Below, piece after piece: positions 32,825 to 41,774 of a stretch of 64,000 bases of DNA (the first letter of the stretch is position 1; each line of letters opens with the position of its first letter). Both the position numbers and the translations under genes were made by a program. The DNA comes from Mesoterricola sediminis. GTDB lineage: Bacteria; Acidobacteriota; Holophagae; Holophagales; Holophagaceae. Below the pieces are notes generated by a model. The model searched no databases and was not told the origin of the DNA. It worked only from the letters and a program-made list of their open reading frames with translations. The stretch covers positions 3,827,001 to 3,891,000 of the forward strand of contig NZ_AP027081.1 of NCBI RefSeq assembly GCF_030295425.1, read 5' to 3'.

Positions 32825-35266
32825 ATGTGCGGAATCGTCTCCATCTGCTACGGGTCTGACAACGCGTCGCTGGGCGCCGAGGCCACTGAACTACTGAAAA
32901 GGCTTGAGTACCGTGGATACGATTCCACCGGCGGCGCCTTCGTGGACGGCGCCGGGGAGATCCGCCTCCTGAAGAAGGTGGGCGCCCCCAGCCGGGTCTG
33001 CTCCGCCATCGGCATCGACCGGGAGCGCGGCGCGCGGTTCATCGGCCAGGTGCGCTGGGCCACCTACGGCGCCGTCACCGACGTGAACAGCCAGCCCCAC
33101 CACGTCACCTGCCGGCTGCCCTTCGTGGGCGCCCACAACGGCAACATCTCGAACACCGACTCCCTGAAGGGCTGGCTCACGGACCTCGGGCACCGGGTCG
33201 TCTCGGACAACGACGGGGAGATGATCACCCACGTCGCCGAGGCGTTCTACGCCGACAACCTGGAAGCCCCCGCCGAGGCCCTCGAGGCCGGCCGCCGCGC
33301 CGCGGCGGCCCTCCCCGCCCCGCCCCCGGACGGGGCCCTCCTCCTCATGGACGCCGCGCGCCGGGCCGACGCCCGCGCTGAAGGCTCGTACGCCGCCGCC
33401 TTCTGCGACCCCCGGGTCCCCGGCGTCGTCGCGGTGAAGTCGGGCTCCTCCCTCTACGCCGGGATCGGCTCGGACGCGCACGGGCCCTTCGTCCTCGTCT
33501 CCAGCGACCTCACCAGCGTCCTCAGCAAGACCCGGATGCTCATCCCCCTGAGCGAAGGCGAGGGCATCTGGTTCACGGACCGGGAGTACGCCGTCTTCCC
33601 CCTGGCCGGGCCCCTGGCGCTCTCGGCCCCGAAGCCCCGCCGCTCCAAGCTCAACGTGCGGGACACCGGCCTGCGGCCCCCCTTCAAGTACTTCATGGAC
33701 CAGGAGATCGCCTCCTCCGCGGAGAACCTGGACGCCATCCTGCGCTACTACTTCCAGGACCCCGCCACCGAGGCCCTCCACCAGGCCTTCGAGGCCCGCC
33801 TGGACCTGGGCAAGGCCGTCCTGGCCAAGGCCGCGGCCCTGAACGAGGCCCCGGACGCCGAGGCCCTCCGGGAAGGGTTCGACAGGCTCCTGGACGATCC
33901 CGCCCTCGGGGAGCTGAGGGCCGCCGTGAAGCCCCACCGGGAGGCCCTCGGCGTCGGGGAGCCCTTCACCTCCGAGGAGCGGGGGCTGCTGGGGGACCTG
34001 GCCCGCCTGGCGCCCGGCGCCGCCGAGGACCTGGCCCTCTTCGACCGCCTTTTCGTGTGGAAGAAGCAGCGGCGCGTCTCGGGGCTCCTGCAGGAGCTCG
34101 CCAAGGCCATGCGCGAGGCCAAGGGCCGGATCTTCCTCGTGGCCTCCGGCACCTCGTACCACGCCGCGCTGGTGGGCGCCTACTTCTTCAACAACCTCGC
34201 GGGGGTGGCGGTCTTCCCGGCCAACCCGGGGACCTTCCGCTCCATGTACCTCAACACCCTGGAGCCGGGGGACCTGCTGGTGGGCATCACCCAGTCCGGC
34301 GAGACCAAGGACCTGGTGGATATCTTCCAGGACGTCCGGGCCCGGGTCCCCGCCCTCCGCCGGGTGGCCCTCGTGAACAACGAGAACAGCCGCATCCCCC
34401 AGGAGCTCTCGGAGTTCTACCTGCCCCTCCTCTGCGGCCCCGAGATCGCGGTGGCCGCCACCAAGAGCTTCCTCAACCAGATCGCCGTGCTCTACGCCCT
34501 CGCCGCCTCCTTCTCCATGAACGAGCGCCGCGTCGTCGAGCAGCTCCGGGCGGCCCGGGACCTCGTGGAGCGCACCCTGGCCGGGTGCGGCGAGGCCGTG
34601 GAGGCCGCCGCGCGCCGCCTCCACCTGGAGCCCAGCCTCCACATCCTCGGCACCGGCCTCATCGGCCTGGCCCGGGAGGGGGCCCTCAAGATCCGCGAGG
34701 TGGTGCTCAACCACGCCGAAGGGTACGACGCCGCCGAGTTCAAGCACGGGCCCAACACCATCCTCGGCAAGAACACCCTCTTCTCCATCGCGGACCTGGC
34801 GGGGCTCCTGGACGCCTACGAGGCCCGCCGGGACGGCAGCCCCTTCCCCGGCGGCATCGACGTCCTGCGGGCCAACCCCGACCTCGTCGAGTCCCACTTC
34901 TCCAACTACCCCCTCCTCTTCGTGTGCCCCCGGGACGAGCGGGACGTGCGGATCACCATCAGCCAGATCCACACCCACAAGATCCGGGGCGCCGACATCC
35001 TCCTCATCGCCGAGGCCGATCCCGACCTGGCCCTGGCCGTCGCCGGCCGGCCCATGGGCGACGACCGCTACCAGTCCCTCTACCTGGAGGTCCCGCCGGC
35101 CCCCGATCCGAACCTCTTCGTGTTCGCGGCGACCCTCCTCCTCCAGCGCCTCGCCTTCCGCATGTCGGTGCTCAAGATGGAGTATCTGGACCAGTTGCGG
35201 GTGGCCGACCACGGCGTCCACCCCGACAGTCCCAAGAACGTCTCCAAGTCCATCACCGTGGACTGA
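32825..35266 (+). CDS. GlmS-like glutamine amidotransferase/SIS protein, enlarged form
   Basis: 813 residues against about 610 for standard GlmS. The class II glutaminase domain (about 1-250) has the nucleophile Cys2 in MCGIVSICYG, RWATYG (the usual RWATHG His is Tyr) and AHNGNISN. An inserted helical region (about 280-430) is absent from GlmS. Two SIS domains follow: SGTSYHAAL and ITQSGETKDL in the first, EFKHGPNTI in the second. The C-terminal tail PKNVSKSITVD keeps the Lys of the sugar-phosphate site. It probably forms glucosamine 6-phosphate for peptidoglycan and LPS, but could be a divergent paralogue. Confidence 0.85.
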   Translation: MCGIVSICYGSDNASLGAEATELLKRLEYRGYDSTGGAFVDGAGEIRLLKKVGAPSRVCSAIGIDRERGARFIGQVRWATYGAVTDVNSQPHHVTCRLPFVGAHNGNISNTDSLKGWLTDLGHRVVSDNDGEMITHVAEAFYADNLEAPAEALEAGRRAAAALPAPPPDGALLLMDAARRADARAEGSYAAAFCDPRVPGVVAVKSGSSLYAGIGSDAHGPFVLVSSDLTSVLSKTRMLIPLSEGEGIWFTDREYAVFPLAGPLALSAPKPRRSKLNVRDTGLRPPFKYFMDQEIASSAENLDAILRYYFQDPATEALHQAFEARLDLGKAVLAKAAALNEAPDAEALREGFDRLLDDPALGELRAAVKPHREALGVGEPFTSEERGLLGDLARLAPGAAEDLALFDRLFVWKKQRRVSGLLQELAKAMREAKGRIFLVASGTSYHAALVGAYFFNNLAGVAVFPANPGTFRSMYLNTLEPGDLLVGITQSGETKDLVDIFQDVRARVPALRRVALVNNENSRIPQELSEFYLPLLCGPEIAVAATKSFLNQIAVLYALAASFSMNERRVVEQLRAARDLVERTLAGCGEAVEAAARRLHLEPSLHILGTGLIGLAREGALKIREVVLNHAEGYDAAEFKHGPNTILGKNTLFSIADLAGLLDAYEARRDGSPFPGGIDVLRANPDLVESHFSNYPLLFVCPRDERDVRITISQIHTHKIRGADILLIAEADPDLALAVAGRPMGDDRYQSLYLEVPPAPDPNLFVFAATLLLQRLAFRMSVLKMEYLDQLRVADHGVHPDSPKNVSKSITVD

Positions 35267-35290
35267 GCCTAGGGGCTGCACAAATCTACC

Positions 35291-35322: not shown

Positions 35323-35606
35323 CGGCCCGGGTTGTATGCCTGTTCGCTCAGGCGCCAAGTATAAATTTTTCTATATTTTAGAAATCGATAATTACAGCAC
35401 GAAAAACGCCGGAGGGGGGTTGGCGCCGACCTGGGCGCCGGGCCAGGGCGGCCCTAGGATGGGATCATAGGTCTGAAAGGCAGGCGGCGCGCGGTGGCGC
35501 CCCTCCCGTCCCTGACAGGGGACGGCCTTCGGTCTGCCCCTCCGGGCGGCCCGACCTGCCCTCGGTCCGCCCTATGGAGCACCCACCCCCCTTGGAGGAC
35601 ACGCGG
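35323..35606 (+). promoter_or_regulatory. AT-rich island and long GC-rich leader upstream of the flavoprotein gene
   Basis: Bases 35355-35405 are strikingly AT-rich (TATAAATTTTTCTATATTTT and following) in an otherwise very GC-rich region, the best promoter or UP-element-like zone in the window. TATAAA occurs at 35360-35365. Up to about 200 bases of leader follow before the ATG, with several potential GC-rich hairpins (for example GGCGCCGACCTGGGCGCC near 35423-35440). No known riboswitch is recognised. Probably the regulated promoter of the flavoprotein-cytochrome operon. Confidence 0.5.
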
Positions 35607-37307
35607 ATGACGAACAACCCATCCCACGACGCACCGGAGCTGGATGCCGCGACCCGGCATGCCCTGGAGAACGGCCTTTCCCGGCGCAGCTTCCTGACCC
35701 ACACGGCCCTCGGGGCGGCAGCGGTCGGCATGGTCGGCCTGCCCGGCGTCGCCGCGGCCGCCGCCGAGCCCGGCAAGGCCAAGGCCAAGGCCGCCGCGGC
35801 CCCCGCCGGCGAGTTCGGGAAGACGCCCGGCGCCACCCTGAACTTCCTGCCCAAGCCCAAGCCCATCCCCGAAAAGGCCATCAAGGAGACCCTCACCTTC
35901 GATGTGGTGGTGGTCGGCGCCGGCGCCTCGGGCGTCCCGGCGGCCCTCTCCGCCCATGAGGCCGGCGCCAAGGTCGCCGTCCTCCAGAAGGCCCCCTTCG
36001 CCGTCTCCCAGGGCAACACGGGCACCGGCATCGACCTGGCCAAGAGCGACAAGGCCGGCGTCGAGGCCCTGGTCGCCCTGATCGTGGGCAACAACAACCA
36101 TCGCAGCAACACCAAGCTGGTCCGCCAGTGGGCCTACAACTCCGGTGAAGCCGTCCGCTGGGTCATCGACCGCGCCAAGAAGGGCGGCAGCCCCGTCTTC
36201 GACCAGGGCAACGTCCAGCACGGCCCCAACCTGAAGGTGAACGGCTACCCCATGAGCTACGTCACCTCGTTCTTCGGCCCCAAGCCCTACACCACGGGCG
36301 ACGGCATGCGCGACCTGGCCAAGTACGCCGAAGCGCAGGGCGTGAAGTTCTTCTACCTCCACCCCGCGGCCCAGCTCGTGCAGGGGCGCAACGGCGAGGT
36401 GGTGGGCGTGATCGCCCAGAACGCCCAGGGCCAGTACATCCGGTTCATGGCCAAGAAGGGCGTCATCCTGGCGACGGGCGACTACCAGAGCAACAAGGCG
36501 ATGAGCGACTACTTCCTGCCCGACCTCAGGCACATGGGCCGGAAGCAGATGGACCGCGATGGCGACGGGTTCGTCATGGCCTTCTGGGCCGGGGCCGTCT
36601 TCGACCCCATCGGCCACACCAAGATGCTCCACGACTTCGACGCGGGGCCGGCCACCATGTGCGACATGCCCTTCCTGGCGGTCAACCGCGACGGCAAGCG
36701 CTTCGTCAGCGAGTGCGTGGAGATGTCCCTGCTCAACAACTACCTGAAGAACGAGAAGGACGCCGGCCACTACTGCCAGATCTTCGACGCGGACTACATG
36801 ACCCGCGCCGCGAAGTGGCCCGGTCGCCTCGTTCCCCCCGAGGGCCTGAAGAACTACATGCCCGACGTCCCCGGTCCCAAGAAGGGCGTGCTGGAGCCCT
36901 TCATCAACACCCACGTGGCCGACACCCTGGACGAACTGGCCCGCAAGCTGGGTCTGGATCCCGCCGCGCTGGCCGCGACGGTCAAGCGCTACAACGACCT
37001 GGCCGCGGCCGGCCGCGACGAGGACTTCGGCAACCCCGCGGACAAGATGGCCCCGGTGCTCAAGGCCCCCTTCTACGGGATTCACCGCGCCGTCCGGGTC
37101 TCGGCCATCGTGTCGGGCATGGTGGTGAACGAACGGCATAACGCCCTGGACGCCGACGGCAAGCCCATCAAGGGGCTCTACCTCGCCGGCAACCTGAGCG
37201 GCGGCTTCTACGGTGGCATCGATTACCCGATGGCAGTCCCCGGCCTCTCCTTGGGCCGGTGCTACACCGTCGGGTACCTCACCGGGAAGCACGTGGCGAG
37301 CCTCTGA
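35607..37307 (+). CDS. Tat-exported FAD-dependent reductase (fumarate reductase/flavocytochrome c-like flavoprotein)
   Basis: 566 residues. The Tat signal has SRRSFL at 25-30 and a hydrophobic stretch ending AAAA near 53. The FAD-binding fold starts at FDVVVVGAGASGVPAALSAHEAG and closes with GLYLAGNLSGGF, so this belongs to the FRD_SDH/FAD_binding_2 family and acts in the periplasm. The residues diagnostic of fumarate reduction are not seen: the TTRD Arg segment reads ECVEMS after GKRF, and the HHTMGG segment reads SAIVSGM. Another substrate is therefore likely. The next gene encodes its probable electron donor, a pentahaem cytochrome. The ATG at 35607 has GGAGGAC upstream. Confidence 0.88.
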   Translation: MTNNPSHDAPELDAATRHALENGLSRRSFLTHTALGAAAVGMVGLPGVAAAAAEPGKAKAKAAAAPAGEFGKTPGATLNFLPKPKPIPEKAIKETLTFDVVVVGAGASGVPAALSAHEAGAKVAVLQKAPFAVSQGNTGTGIDLAKSDKAGVEALVALIVGNNNHRSNTKLVRQWAYNSGEAVRWVIDRAKKGGSPVFDQGNVQHGPNLKVNGYPMSYVTSFFGPKPYTTGDGMRDLAKYAEAQGVKFFYLHPAAQLVQGRNGEVVGVIAQNAQGQYIRFMAKKGVILATGDYQSNKAMSDYFLPDLRHMGRKQMDRDGDGFVMAFWAGAVFDPIGHTKMLHDFDAGPATMCDMPFLAVNRDGKRFVSECVEMSLLNNYLKNEKDAGHYCQIFDADYMTRAAKWPGRLVPPEGLKNYMPDVPGPKKGVLEPFINTHVADTLDELARKLGLDPAALAATVKRYNDLAAAGRDEDFGNPADKMAPVLKAPFYGIHRAVRVSAIVSGMVVNERHNALDADGKPIKGLYLAGNLSGGFYGGIDYPMAVPGLSLGRCYTVGYLTGKHVASL

Positions 37308-37387
37308 GCCCGCCTCCGGCCCGTCCCTGGGGGTGGGGACGGGCCGGCCGCACCTCACCCCTCCCTCGCCCATCACAGGAAGGAACC

Positions 37388-37870
37388 ATGATCCGAATTT
37401 GGAGATTTCTGCCATCGTCCCTCGCGCTCCTCGCCGCCCTCACCCTGGGCGTCCAGGCCCAGGCCAAGCCGGCCACGGGGGCGGAGCCCATCAAGCTGCC
37501 CGCGGGCCACGTGTCCATCCAGGGCAAGTCCTTCAAGGACTGCAAGACCTGCCACACGGGGGCCCAGGGCAAGCCGGCCAGCCTAGTCGGCAAGCTGAAG
37601 GGCGTCCAGATCCACGCCCTCGCCGGCGTCACCTGCGCCCAGTGCCACGACGGGAAGGGCAAGCCCGCCCCCGTGCCGACCTGGACCTGCGTGGGCTGCC
37701 ACGGCCCCACGAAGGACCTCGCCGCCCGCACCGCCCAGGTGAAGCCCCACAACCCGCATCAGTCCCGCCACTACGGCACGGACGCCGCCTGCGCCAAGTG
37801 CCACCACATGCACCGCGCCTCGGAGAACGACTGCCTGCAGTGCCACGCTTTCCAGTTCCAGGTGCCCTAG
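37388..37870 (+). CDS. Periplasmic pentahaem c-type cytochrome
   Basis: 160 residues with a Sec signal peptide (about 1-26, cleavage near AQA). Five CxxCH haem sites lie at 52-56, 83-87, 101-105, 135-139 and 149-153, with additional His residues (for example 41, 76, 121, 124, 128) available as distal ligands. It resembles the small cytochrome c3-like subunit that donates electrons to periplasmic flavin reductases, though flavocytochrome c3 and the methacrylate reductase cytochrome carry four haems rather than five. It follows the flavoprotein gene by 80 bp with an AGGAAGGAA ribosome site, and a strong terminator comes after. Confidence 0.92.
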   Translation: MIRIWRFLPSSLALLAALTLGVQAQAKPATGAEPIKLPAGHVSIQGKSFKDCKTCHTGAQGKPASLVGKLKGVQIHALAGVTCAQCHDGKGKPAPVPTWTCVGCHGPTKDLAARTAQVKPHNPHQSRHYGTDAACAKCHHMHRASENDCLQCHAFQFQVP

Positions 37871-38424: not shown

Positions 38425-40347
38425 ATGATCGAGAAGCTTGACTACGAATCGGCGGGCTTGATCTCGGGCCTGGAAGTGCATCAGCAGCTTCTCACCGCCC
38501 ACAAGCTCTTCTGCCGCTGCCCCGCGGGGCTCTACACCCACACCCACGACGGCGAGGTGCTCCGCCACATGCGGCCCACCCTCTCCGAGCTGGGCGAGTA
38601 CGACGGCACGGCGCTGATGGAGTTCAAGACGCGCAAGGAGATCATCTATCTCCTGAACCACCTCAACGTGTGCACCTATGAGATGGACGACACCCCGCCC
38701 TTCCTGGTGAACCAGGAGGCCATCGACGTCGCCATCGAGCTCTGCCTGGCCATGGGCATGGACATCATCGACGAGGTCCACATCGCCCGGAAGCAGTACC
38801 TGGACGGCTCCATTCCCACCGGCTTCCAGCGCACGGCCATCGTGGGCATGAACGGCGGGATGCCCTTCCACGGGCGCACCCTCAGCGTCACCCACGTCTC
38901 GATCGAGGAGGACTCCTGCCGCGAGGTGAGCGACAAGGGCCACCGCATCGTCTGGCGCACGGACCGCCTGGGCATGCCCCTCACGGAGACCGTGACCGGC
39001 CCCGACCTGCGGACCCCCCAGGAGGTGCGGGACGCCATCACCCTCTGCGGCCTCGTGGCCCGGACCACGGGCCGGGTCCGCACCGGCATCGGCGCCAGCC
39101 GCCAGGACGTCAATGTCAGCGTCAGGGGCGGCAGCCGGGTCGAGATCAAGGGCGTGCCCAAGGCGGCCTGGGCGGTGAAGCTCGTGCACAACGAGGGCAT
39201 CCGCCAGGTCAACCTGCTCCGCCTGCGCGACGAGCTCCACCGGCGCGGCTGGCGGGAGCCCGGCGATGTCCGCACCCACGTGGCCGATGTCACCGACGTG
39301 TTCCAGTCGGTGGACCTGGGCTTCATGCAGCGCGCCATCCGGAGCGGCGGCCGGATCTTCGCGGTCCGCCTGGAGGGCGGCCTGGGCCTGGCCCAGTGGC
39401 CCACCCAGCCGGAGACCACCTTCCTGGACGAACTCGCGGGCCGGGTCCGGGTCATCGCCTGCCTGGACGAAGCGCCCATTGTGCTCAGCGGCCAGCAGAT
39501 GCCCGAATTCCCCCTGAAGCACCGCACCCTCGAGCGCCTCCGCCGGAAGCTGCGCATGGGGGAGAACGACGACTACTTCATCGTCTTCGGACCCGAGGTG
39601 GACTGCCGCACGGCCGCCGAGGAGATCCGGATCCGCTTCGTGGACGCCCTCAAAGGGGTGCCCCAGGAGACCCGCCAGTCCCTGGCCGGCGGGTTCACCA
39701 CCTTCGAGCGCATCCTGCCCGGCCCGGACCGGATGTACCCCGACACCGACTCGCCCCCCACCCGCATCACCGCCGAGCGCGTGGAGGCGGCCCGGGCCCG
39801 CATGCGGCCCACCCCCTGGGCGCGGTTCCACCAGTTCGGCGCCTGGGGCGTGCCCCCGGAGACCACGGAGTACCTCATCCGCAGGGGCGGCGTCGCCCTC
39901 GTGGACGCCGTGGTGGCCGCGACGGGCGCGGACGGCCTCCTGGCCTCCGTGGAGATCGGGCAGCGGGCCAAGGCCCTCCACCGCCGCGGCCTGCCCGTGG
40001 AACGGCTGGGCGCCACCGAATGGGTCCAGATCTTCGACCTCTTCACCGGCGGCCAGATCCCCCGCGAGGGCATCCAGATGCTCGCCGCCCACATGGCCGC
40101 CAACCCGGGCCGGGACGCCCAGGCGTCCATGGAGGCCCTGGGCATCGGCGTCCAGCCCCGGGAGGCCTGGGCCCGCGAGCTGTCCGCCCTCTCCATGGAG
40201 GACTACCGCATCGACAAGGGCGACTCGGACGGCAAGCGCCTGCGCTTCCTGGCCGGGCGCGCCATGAAGCTCCTCCTCGGCAAGGCCCCCGCGAAGGACG
40301 TGGCCGACTACCTCAGGACCCGGCTCACCCAGGAGGCTTCCCGATGA
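38425..40347 (+). CDS. gatE: Glu-tRNA(Gln) amidotransferase subunit E (archaeal type)
   Basis: 640 residues, the length of archaeal GatE. The N-terminal GatB/E cradle starts GLISGLEVHQQLLT (residues about 12-25) and includes the zinc-type Cys in KLFCRCP. Motifs of the kinase/transamidase core follow (SIPTGFQRTAIVG, SRQDVNVSVRGGSRVEIKG), then an AspRS-like GAD insertion (about 285-400) unique to GatE, and helical plus tail domains contacting tRNA. It phosphorylates Glu-tRNA(Gln) and accepts ammonia from GatD. The gene couples to gatD by ATGA. The GatDE pair is textbook archaeal, so its presence beside normal bacterial genes is notable. Confidence 0.92.
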   Translation: MIEKLDYESAGLISGLEVHQQLLTAHKLFCRCPAGLYTHTHDGEVLRHMRPTLSELGEYDGTALMEFKTRKEIIYLLNHLNVCTYEMDDTPPFLVNQEAIDVAIELCLAMGMDIIDEVHIARKQYLDGSIPTGFQRTAIVGMNGGMPFHGRTLSVTHVSIEEDSCREVSDKGHRIVWRTDRLGMPLTETVTGPDLRTPQEVRDAITLCGLVARTTGRVRTGIGASRQDVNVSVRGGSRVEIKGVPKAAWAVKLVHNEGIRQVNLLRLRDELHRRGWREPGDVRTHVADVTDVFQSVDLGFMQRAIRSGGRIFAVRLEGGLGLAQWPTQPETTFLDELAGRVRVIACLDEAPIVLSGQQMPEFPLKHRTLERLRRKLRMGENDDYFIVFGPEVDCRTAAEEIRIRFVDALKGVPQETRQSLAGGFTTFERILPGPDRMYPDTDSPPTRITAERVEAARARMRPTPWARFHQFGAWGVPPETTEYLIRRGGVALVDAVVAATGADGLLASVEIGQRAKALHRRGLPVERLGATEWVQIFDLFTGGQIPREGIQMLAAHMAANPGRDAQASMEALGIGVQPREAWARELSALSMEDYRIDKGDSDGKRLRFLAGRAMKLLLGKAPAKDVADYLRTRLTQEASR

Positions 40348-41774
40348 GCGCCGCCATCCCCCTGAACGAGCGTGACGACCGGTTCCAGGGCTACCGCGGA
40401 CCCGCGCGCGACGCCCTCGAGCGCTACGCCATCGGCGTCTGGAGCGAGGTGGAGATCGTCAACGACCGCGGCTCGGTCTTCAAGGGCGTGATCCTCCCCC
40501 GCAGCGAGACCTTCGACGACCTCCACATCGTGGTCAAGCTGTTCAACGGCTACAACGTCGGCGTCGAGGCCACCCGCATCGCCTCCGCCGTCGAGACCGG
40601 ATACCGCAAGGCCGTCTACAAGATCCCCGAGAAGGCCTTCCCCTGCGACTTCCGCAAGAAGAACGTCACCCTGCTGGGCACGGGCGGCACCATCGCCTCC
40701 CGCCTGGACTACCGCACCGGCGCCGTGATCCCGGCCTTCACCCCCGGCGAGCTCTACGGCGCCGTCCCGGAGCTGGCCGACATCGCGAACATGGAGACCA
40801 AGAAGCTCTTCGGGGTCTTCAGCGAGAACATGGGCCCCGAGCAGTACAAGGCCCTGGCCAAGGCCATCGGCGAGGAGATCGCCAAGGGCGTGGACGGCAT
40901 CGTGGTCGGCCACGGCACGGACACCATGAGCCACACGGGGGCGATCCTCAGCTTCATGGTCCAGAACTCCCCGGTGCCCATCGTCCTCGTCGGCAGCCAG
41001 CGCAGTTCCGACCGGCCCTCCTCCGACGCGGCCCTCAACCTCATGAACGCGGTCCGGACCGCGGCCGAGTGCGACATCGCCGAAGTCATGCTCTGCATGT
41101 TCGGCCCGACGTCGGACAACTACGACCTGCTGCACCGCGGCACCCGCTGCCGGAAGATGCACTCCAGCTACCGGAGCACCTTCCGCACCATCGGCGCCAC
41201 CCCCCTGGCCACCGTGAGCCGGGAGACCAACGAGCACGGGAAGCACTTCACCTACCTCACCGACGACTACCTGAAGCGGGACCGCAGCCGCGTGCCCATC
41301 ATCAACCCGGCCTTCGAGGAGAAGGTCACCATCCAGTACTACTACCCGAACTTCAACCCCGACATCATCGACGCCCTCTCCGACCTGAACTACCGGGGCC
41401 TCGTGATCGCCGGGACGGGCCTGGGCCACATCAACAAGCCCCTGTACCCCGCCGTCAAGCGCGCCATCCAGAAGGGCATGACCGTGGTCATGACGGTCCA
41501 GACCATCTGGGGCTACGCCCAGATGTACGTCTACGACACCGGCCGCGACCTGCTCAACCTGGGGATCATCCCCATGGACAACATGCTCCCCGAGACGGCC
41601 TACATGAAGCTCGCCTGGGTCCTGGGCCAGACCGACGATCCCAAGCGGATCCGGGAGATGCTGCTCACCCCCGTGAACCACGAGATCACGCCCCGGGAGC
41701 CGCACAACGGCTACCTCGTGCTCCAGGGCGGGCTCCCCGAGGTGGAAGCCTTCATCGGGCAGCACTGGAAGTAG
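40344..41774 (+). CDS. gatD: Glu-tRNA(Gln) amidotransferase subunit D (archaeal type)
   Basis: 476 residues. The N-terminal GatD-specific beta-barrel domain (about 30-100, with VWSEVEIVN and KGVILPRSE) distinguishes it from plain L-asparaginase. The asparaginase-like domain carries the catalytic residues: Thr116 in GTGGTIAS, Thr192-Asp193 in GHGTDTMSHTG and Lys271 in RGTRCRKMHSS. SQRSSDRPSSDAALNL is the usual GatD loop. It releases ammonia from Gln for GatE-bound Glu-tRNA(Gln). The start overlaps the gatE stop and has AGGAGG. A hairpin terminator follows. Confidence 0.92.
   Translation: MSAAIPLNERDDRFQGYRGPARDALERYAIGVWSEVEIVNDRGSVFKGVILPRSETFDDLHIVVKLFNGYNVGVEATRIASAVETGYRKAVYKIPEKAFPCDFRKKNVTLLGTGGTIASRLDYRTGAVIPAFTPGELYGAVPELADIANMETKKLFGVFSENMGPEQYKALAKAIGEEIAKGVDGIVVGHGTDTMSHTGAILSFMVQNSPVPIVLVGSQRSSDRPSSDAALNLMNAVRTAAECDIAEVMLCMFGPTSDNYDLLHRGTRCRKMHSSYRSTFRTIGATPLATVSRETNEHGKHFTYLTDDYLKRDRSRVPIINPAFEEKVTIQYYYPNFNPDIIDALSDLNYRGLVIAGTGLGHINKPLYPAVKRAIQKGMTVVMTVQTIWGYAQMYVYDTGRDLLNLGIIPMDNMLPETAYMKLAWVLGQTDDPKRIREMLLTPVNHEITPREPHNGYLVLQGGLPEVEAFIGQHWK

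Follow-up and report, generated by a model that had tools for sequence, protein, structure and literature searches.

Mesoterricola sediminis, a bacterium of the Acidobacteriota, encodes full-length GatE and GatD, the two subunits of an amidotransferase that reviews from 2021 (PMC8007984) and 2022 (PMC9499178) place only in archaea. The gene pair lies at positions 38425-41774 of the window, the 64,000-nucleotide stretch of chromosome analyzed here. As the initial annotation of this DNA pointed out, a bacterial pair contradicts the view of GatDE as the archaeal route to Gln-tRNA(Gln). Related pairs constitute a bacterial GatDE subfamily that is present in at least ten phyla. The explanation that we favor, with modest confidence and on the basis of sequence comparisons, is that the pair is a working member of this widespread subfamily and acts as an accessory enzyme that has changed its substrate recognition and has probably been repurposed.

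Results and Discussion

The gatE gene (38425-40347, + strand, stop codon included) encodes a protein of 640 aa that scores over the cut-offs of curated GatE models, with 477.5 bits against the NCBI curated model NF003107 (cut-off 456) and 406.5 bits against TIGR00134 (cut-off 319.6). GatB models reach at most 129.7 bits on the same protein, compared with a cut-off of 338, which places it outside GatB. The best PDB matches are the archaeal GatE structures 1zq1 and 2d6f, over essentially the full length, and the AlphaFold model (mean pLDDT 82.9) matches 2d6f with a Z score of 36.1 and 1zq1 with a Z score of 32.6. The cradle domain spans residues of about 5-270 and 413-455, with a GAD domain (about 275-412) between its two parts, and is followed by a helical plus YqeY-like tail (about 458-640). 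Pfam matches GatB_N, and GatB_Yqey scores 26.7 bits, just below its cut-off of 27. The Pfam GAD model gives no match at an E value of 0.001. The GAD insertion, which had been proposed from the sequence, is nevertheless confirmed because residues 279-411 of the AlphaFold model match the AspRS insertion (GAD) domain with a Z score of 13.4. His19, Glu161, and Glu188, which we take to be metal/ATP ligands, are present, and each of the three archaeal sequences compared has the same residues. The catalytic residues of GatE are near-invariant across 111 bacterial sequences.

The gatD gene (40344-41774, + strand, stop codon included) encodes 476 aa and is coupled to gatE by an ATGA overlap at 40344-40347 (+ strand), in which the gatD start coincides with the gatE stop; an AGGAGG motif lies shortly upstream. 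GatD scores 483.5 bits against TIGR02153 (cut-off 324) and consists of a GatD_N barrel (PF18195, residues 33-79) followed by two asparaginase domains, PF00710 and PF17763. Its best PDB matches are archaeal GatD of 2d6f and 1zq1, again over essentially the full length. Thr116, Thr192, Asp193, and Lys271 are present and invariant in the alignment. The protein resembles type I L-asparaginase in its catalytic domain, which affords 361.5 bits on TIGR00519, but differs from that enzyme in its extra N-terminal barrel, its GatE partner, and its higher score on the GatD model. Misannotation of a GatB plus an asparaginase is ruled out by the profile scores and fold. The initial annotation had described two full-length subunits, a GatD N-terminal barrel with a Thr-Thr/Asp-Lys catalytic set, and ATGA coupling, all of which are borne out with exact coordinates. 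Bacterial GatD also has a conserved C-terminal extension, NGYLxxQGGxPEVEEFI (window 41700-41774), past the point where the alignment to the archaeal structures ends.

The source genome is complete and consists of a single contig of 4.52 Mb. Both genes have the same GC and GC3 as their neighbors, as had been noted before, and the sister genome G390 carries gatED at the same locus. These three observations exclude contamination or recent import. In the window, a flavocytochrome-type dehydrogenase and a small multihaem cytochrome (35574-37870) lie between a glmS-like gene and gatE; in G390, only a short gap separates the corresponding long ORF from gatE. Long antisense ORFs, such as that at 32891-35281, are common in the window because it is 71% G+C, and they are unlikely to be genes.

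The same genome encodes a full-length GlnRS (722 bits, cut-off 425.8; 769 bits against the GlnRS structure 5bnz). GatDE is therefore not the sole route to Gln-tRNA, and the unusual Gln-tRNA pathway that the initial annotation had suggested is not needed. A genome check for gatB, gatC, glnS, and gltX, along the lines proposed at that stage, finds, besides GlnRS, a separate GatB (501.8 bits), GatC, and GluRS. It is less informative for gltX: the equivalent of Arg350 is present in GluRS, but it is also present in GluRS of GlnRS-negative relatives, and it was dropped as a marker of a discriminating GluRS because it is not diagnostic in Acidobacteriota. The genes for GlnRS and GluRS adjoin on the same strand (G000:C1:4275244-4278422), and many Acidobacteriota genomes, with or without GlnRS and GatDE, contain two GluRS genes (eight such genomes were recorded). 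Also encoded are AsnRS (442.5 bits, over the cut-off), a GluQ-RS-like protein, a bacterial-type AspRS, and a LysRS, the last two named from sequence. A role for GatDE as an Asp-AdT that replaces AsnRS is not needed, with AsnRS over the cut-off in 75 of 80 genomes tested as well as in the source genome. Archaeal GatDE reads the D-loop and the A1-U72 pair of tRNA(Gln) (PMC9499178). The two tRNA(Gln) genes of M. sediminis (TTG and CTG) both specify U1-A72, and the archaeal A1-U72 pair is absent.

GatE scores over the cut-off in 57 of 396 sampled Acidobacteriota genomes (14%), and GlnRS does so in 240. GlnRS is found in 52 of the 57 genomes with GatE versus 188 of the 339 without it (Fisher p about 5e-8, an optimistic value because the genomes are related); this co-occurrence is partly an effect of shared ancestry. 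The five GatE genomes that lack a full GlnRS comprise two with GlnRS fragments (G239 and G268) and three assemblies that are 75-84% complete (G012, G303, and G338). GatB over the cut-off is missing in 34 of the 57 GatE genomes, a tally in which G338, which has a GatB fragment, is counted as GatB-positive. Within a single family (f42), GlnRS and GatDE occur in genus g65 and GatB is absent, and the one genome of genus g114 that was tested for the three proteins encodes GatB but neither GlnRS nor GatE.

Scanning 84,980 genomes with an alignment of bacterial GatE recovered more than 570 relatives, nearly always as gatE-gatD pairs. The best 80 of these come from Acidobacteriota, Aminicenantes, Bacteroidota, Ignavibacteriota, Chlorobiota, Planctomycetota, Myxococcota, Cloacimonadota, Krumholzibacteriota, Neomarinimicrobiota, WOR-3, Eisenbacteria, and a Bdellovibrio. 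Of the named relatives, a Holophagaceae MAG is the nearest, at 78% identity. Because these 80 include two chromosome-level records (CP070718 and CP054675) and Perlabentimonas gracilis, a named strain, bacterial GatDE is not just a binning artifact. The two genes overlap or are closely spaced in most relatives, and almost every locus that extends far enough has gatD adjoining gatE. Membership in a bacterial subfamily of this breadth rules out an isolated archaeal import for the pair. In other phyla, GlnRS is over the cut-off in 41 of 50 GatE genomes and fragmentary in 3 more (44 of 50 in total). The Phycisphaerales chromosome CP070718 has GatDE and GatB without a full GlnRS; a stand-alone GlnRS C-terminal (anticodon-binding) stretch occurs there in a 173-codon frame (G413:C1:3598641-3598940). 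In a Neomarinimicrobiota MAG (G425) with GatE, neither GlnRS nor GatB was found. An all-against-all comparison of flanks of up to 8 kb at 80 loci identified no neighbors of gatED conserved beyond a few loci; one flank family other than gatED, a secreted-protein sorting domain in varying positions, occurs in 11 of the 80. The neighborhood of gatED at these loci gives no pointer to another pathway.

In a GatE tree of 87 rows, a fully supported split divides the bacterial sequences from two archaeal ones; this is expected in part because bacterial sequence patterns were used to gather the relatives. Window GatE falls in a 16-member clade (SH-aLRT 100) that contains Acidobacteriota, Myxococcota, and an Eisenbacteria MAG. 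Because this clade mixes phyla, as judged only from explicitly named rows, the tree suggests transfer of GatE between phyla. Within the first 280 residues of GatE, 60 near-invariant bacterial positions, the catalytic ones included, are identical in all three archaeal sequences, whereas another 24 near-invariant positions differ from all three, some of them beside the active site. Examples of the bacterial signature are DGSIPTGFQRT (archaeal DGSN[TV]xGFQR[TS]) and EEDSCRE. In sequence, the bacterial GatE proteins form a subfamily of their own.

In GatDE and GatCAB, the tail domains contribute to telling tRNA(Gln) and tRNA(Glu) apart through their fit to the smaller D-loop at the elbow (PMC4810234). 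In pairs of bacterial GatE sequences with cradles that are 60-70% identical, identity across the helical domain plus tail is 24% in per-pair alignments, and shuffled tails give 23.5%. In contrast, GatB pairs from Acidobacteriota with equal cradle identity retain 39-40% in the same region. Three archaeal GatE pairs retain 38-39% at a cradle identity of 57-58%, a comparison that draws on only three archaeal sequences, of which the haloarchaeal one is split, with cradle and tail taken from separate frames. An archaeal gatE on the Natrinema thermotolerans plasmid record CP031304.1 (L221:1801-3644) is unannotated and split over two frames. The GAD domain follows the same trend, at about 35% versus 55% for the Methanothermobacter-Pyrococcus pair. 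Bacterial GatE thus contains the tail domain itself but does not exhibit family-like constraint on this tRNA-elbow-reading region. Alignment scores of bacterial tails are well above those of shuffled sequences despite the shuffled-level identity. These scores, along with the near-threshold YqeY match, indicate that the tail has kept its fold, and it may bind tRNA even now. The divergence of the tail bears on substrate recognition, not on the family identity of GatE.

Our data allow us to propose a role for the pair. The host does not need GatDE for Gln-tRNA, and bulk Gln-tRNA(Gln) would come from GlnRS, which makes GatDE an accessory enzyme. By analogy with its family, GatD would release ammonia from Gln or Asn, and the ammonia would pass from GatD to GatE. 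GatE would activate a carboxylate with ATP and then amidate it, as in archaea. Judging from the conserved residues, this chemistry is kept and selected for. The pattern of divergence suggests that elbow-based tRNA selection has been lost. Because the cradle and GatD are very strongly conserved and the tail is not, the substrate is most likely no longer an elbow-selected Glu-tRNA(Gln). We consider it plausible, although with somewhat less confidence than we place in an accessory and probably repurposed enzyme, that GatDE is a neofunctionalized ATP-dependent amidotransferase in many bacterial phyla that acts on another carboxylate, either a different aminoacyl-tRNA or a tRNA-free substrate. Repurposing is supported by a complete genome that encodes both GlnRS and AsnRS, by GlnRS in nearly all carriers, by a diverged tail beside a strongly conserved GatD and intact catalytic residues, by the 24 cradle signature positions, and by a tRNA(Gln) with U1-A72. 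Weighing against it, GatD and GatE both pass models named for Glu-tRNA(Gln) amidotransferase, the tail fold persists, the flanking genes suggest no other pathway, and shared ancestry accounts for part of the co-occurrence with GlnRS. Recruitment for another role, one of the possibilities raised in the initial annotation, is favored as probable.

The main rival explanation, which we regard as possible but distinctly less probable, is an auxiliary Glu-tRNA(Gln) amidotransferase. Such an enzyme would correct the Glu-tRNA(Gln) that an imperfect GluRS produces or provide a conditional supply of Gln-tRNA, for example with Asn as the amide donor, and both routes to Gln-tRNA(Gln) would operate in the cell. 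Both proteins are full-length members of the Glu-AdT family with all catalytic residues and with the GAD and tail domains retained, and a role in correction would explain the co-occurrence with GlnRS. However, the elbow-reading tail lacks the conservation that GatB of Acidobacteriota keeps, the tRNA(Gln) lacks the archaeal A1-U72 pair, and a Glu-AdT lacking tRNA selection would risk amidating Glu-tRNA(Glu).

It is improbable that only GatD matters, as an asparaginase or glutaminase, with GatE as a decaying or structural partner. GatD contains the asparaginase domain and is the most conserved part of the pair, at 60-86% identity to the window protein across phyla versus 37-73% for GatE. However, GatE is not decaying, because its catalytic residues are near-invariant in the 111 bacterial sequences and the two genes have stayed together across phyla. 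Least probable is that GatDE serves as the main or only route to Gln-tRNA, as in archaea; family identity and the Neomarinimicrobiota MAG are consistent with that role, but a full-length GlnRS is present in the complete source genome and in nearly all carriers.

The accessory, probably repurposed enzyme that we favor can be compared with several enzymes already described. Archaeal GatDE (Methanothermobacter thermautotrophicus, 2D6F; Pyrococcus abyssi, 1ZQ1) has the same subunits, domain order (including GAD and the GatD_N barrel), catalytic residues, and fold. The bacterial pair differs in having a host with GlnRS and a U1-A72 tRNA(Gln), 24 altered cradle signature positions, an unconserved tail, and a C-terminal extension of gatD. 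GatB of bacterial GatCAB has the same cradle and tail domains as GatE and the same ATP-dependent amidation chemistry; GatE differs by its GAD domain and by pairing with an asparaginase-type protein in place of GatA and GatC. A further parallel is GatCAB of Bdellovibrio, Deinococcus, and Thermus, which have GlnRS and AsnRS and likewise keep a tRNA-dependent amidotransferase beside direct synthetases (PMC4206432). In those genera it is GatCAB that is redundant, with a presumed function in Asn formation on tRNA(Asn) (PMC4206432), whereas the source genome also has GatDE, and most GatE genomes of Acidobacteriota (the 34 of 57 counted above) have no GatB over the cut-off.

Conclusions

Bacterial proteins are named GatD and GatE by NCBI automatic models, and the genes are therefore visible in databases. 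In a search confined mainly to open-access literature, no paper on bacterial GatDE was found. Accounts of the origin of Gln-tRNA rest on GatDE being confined to archaea (PMC9499178), and its presence in at least ten bacterial phyla changes that premise. If the Neomarinimicrobiota MAG G425 is complete, it may represent a bacterium that relies on GatDE. A 2014 survey knew of no bacterium that encodes both routes to Gln-tRNA (PMC4206432). Because GatDE sits beside GlnRS, bacterial GatDE represents either the first bacteria with both routes or a new job for a translation enzyme.
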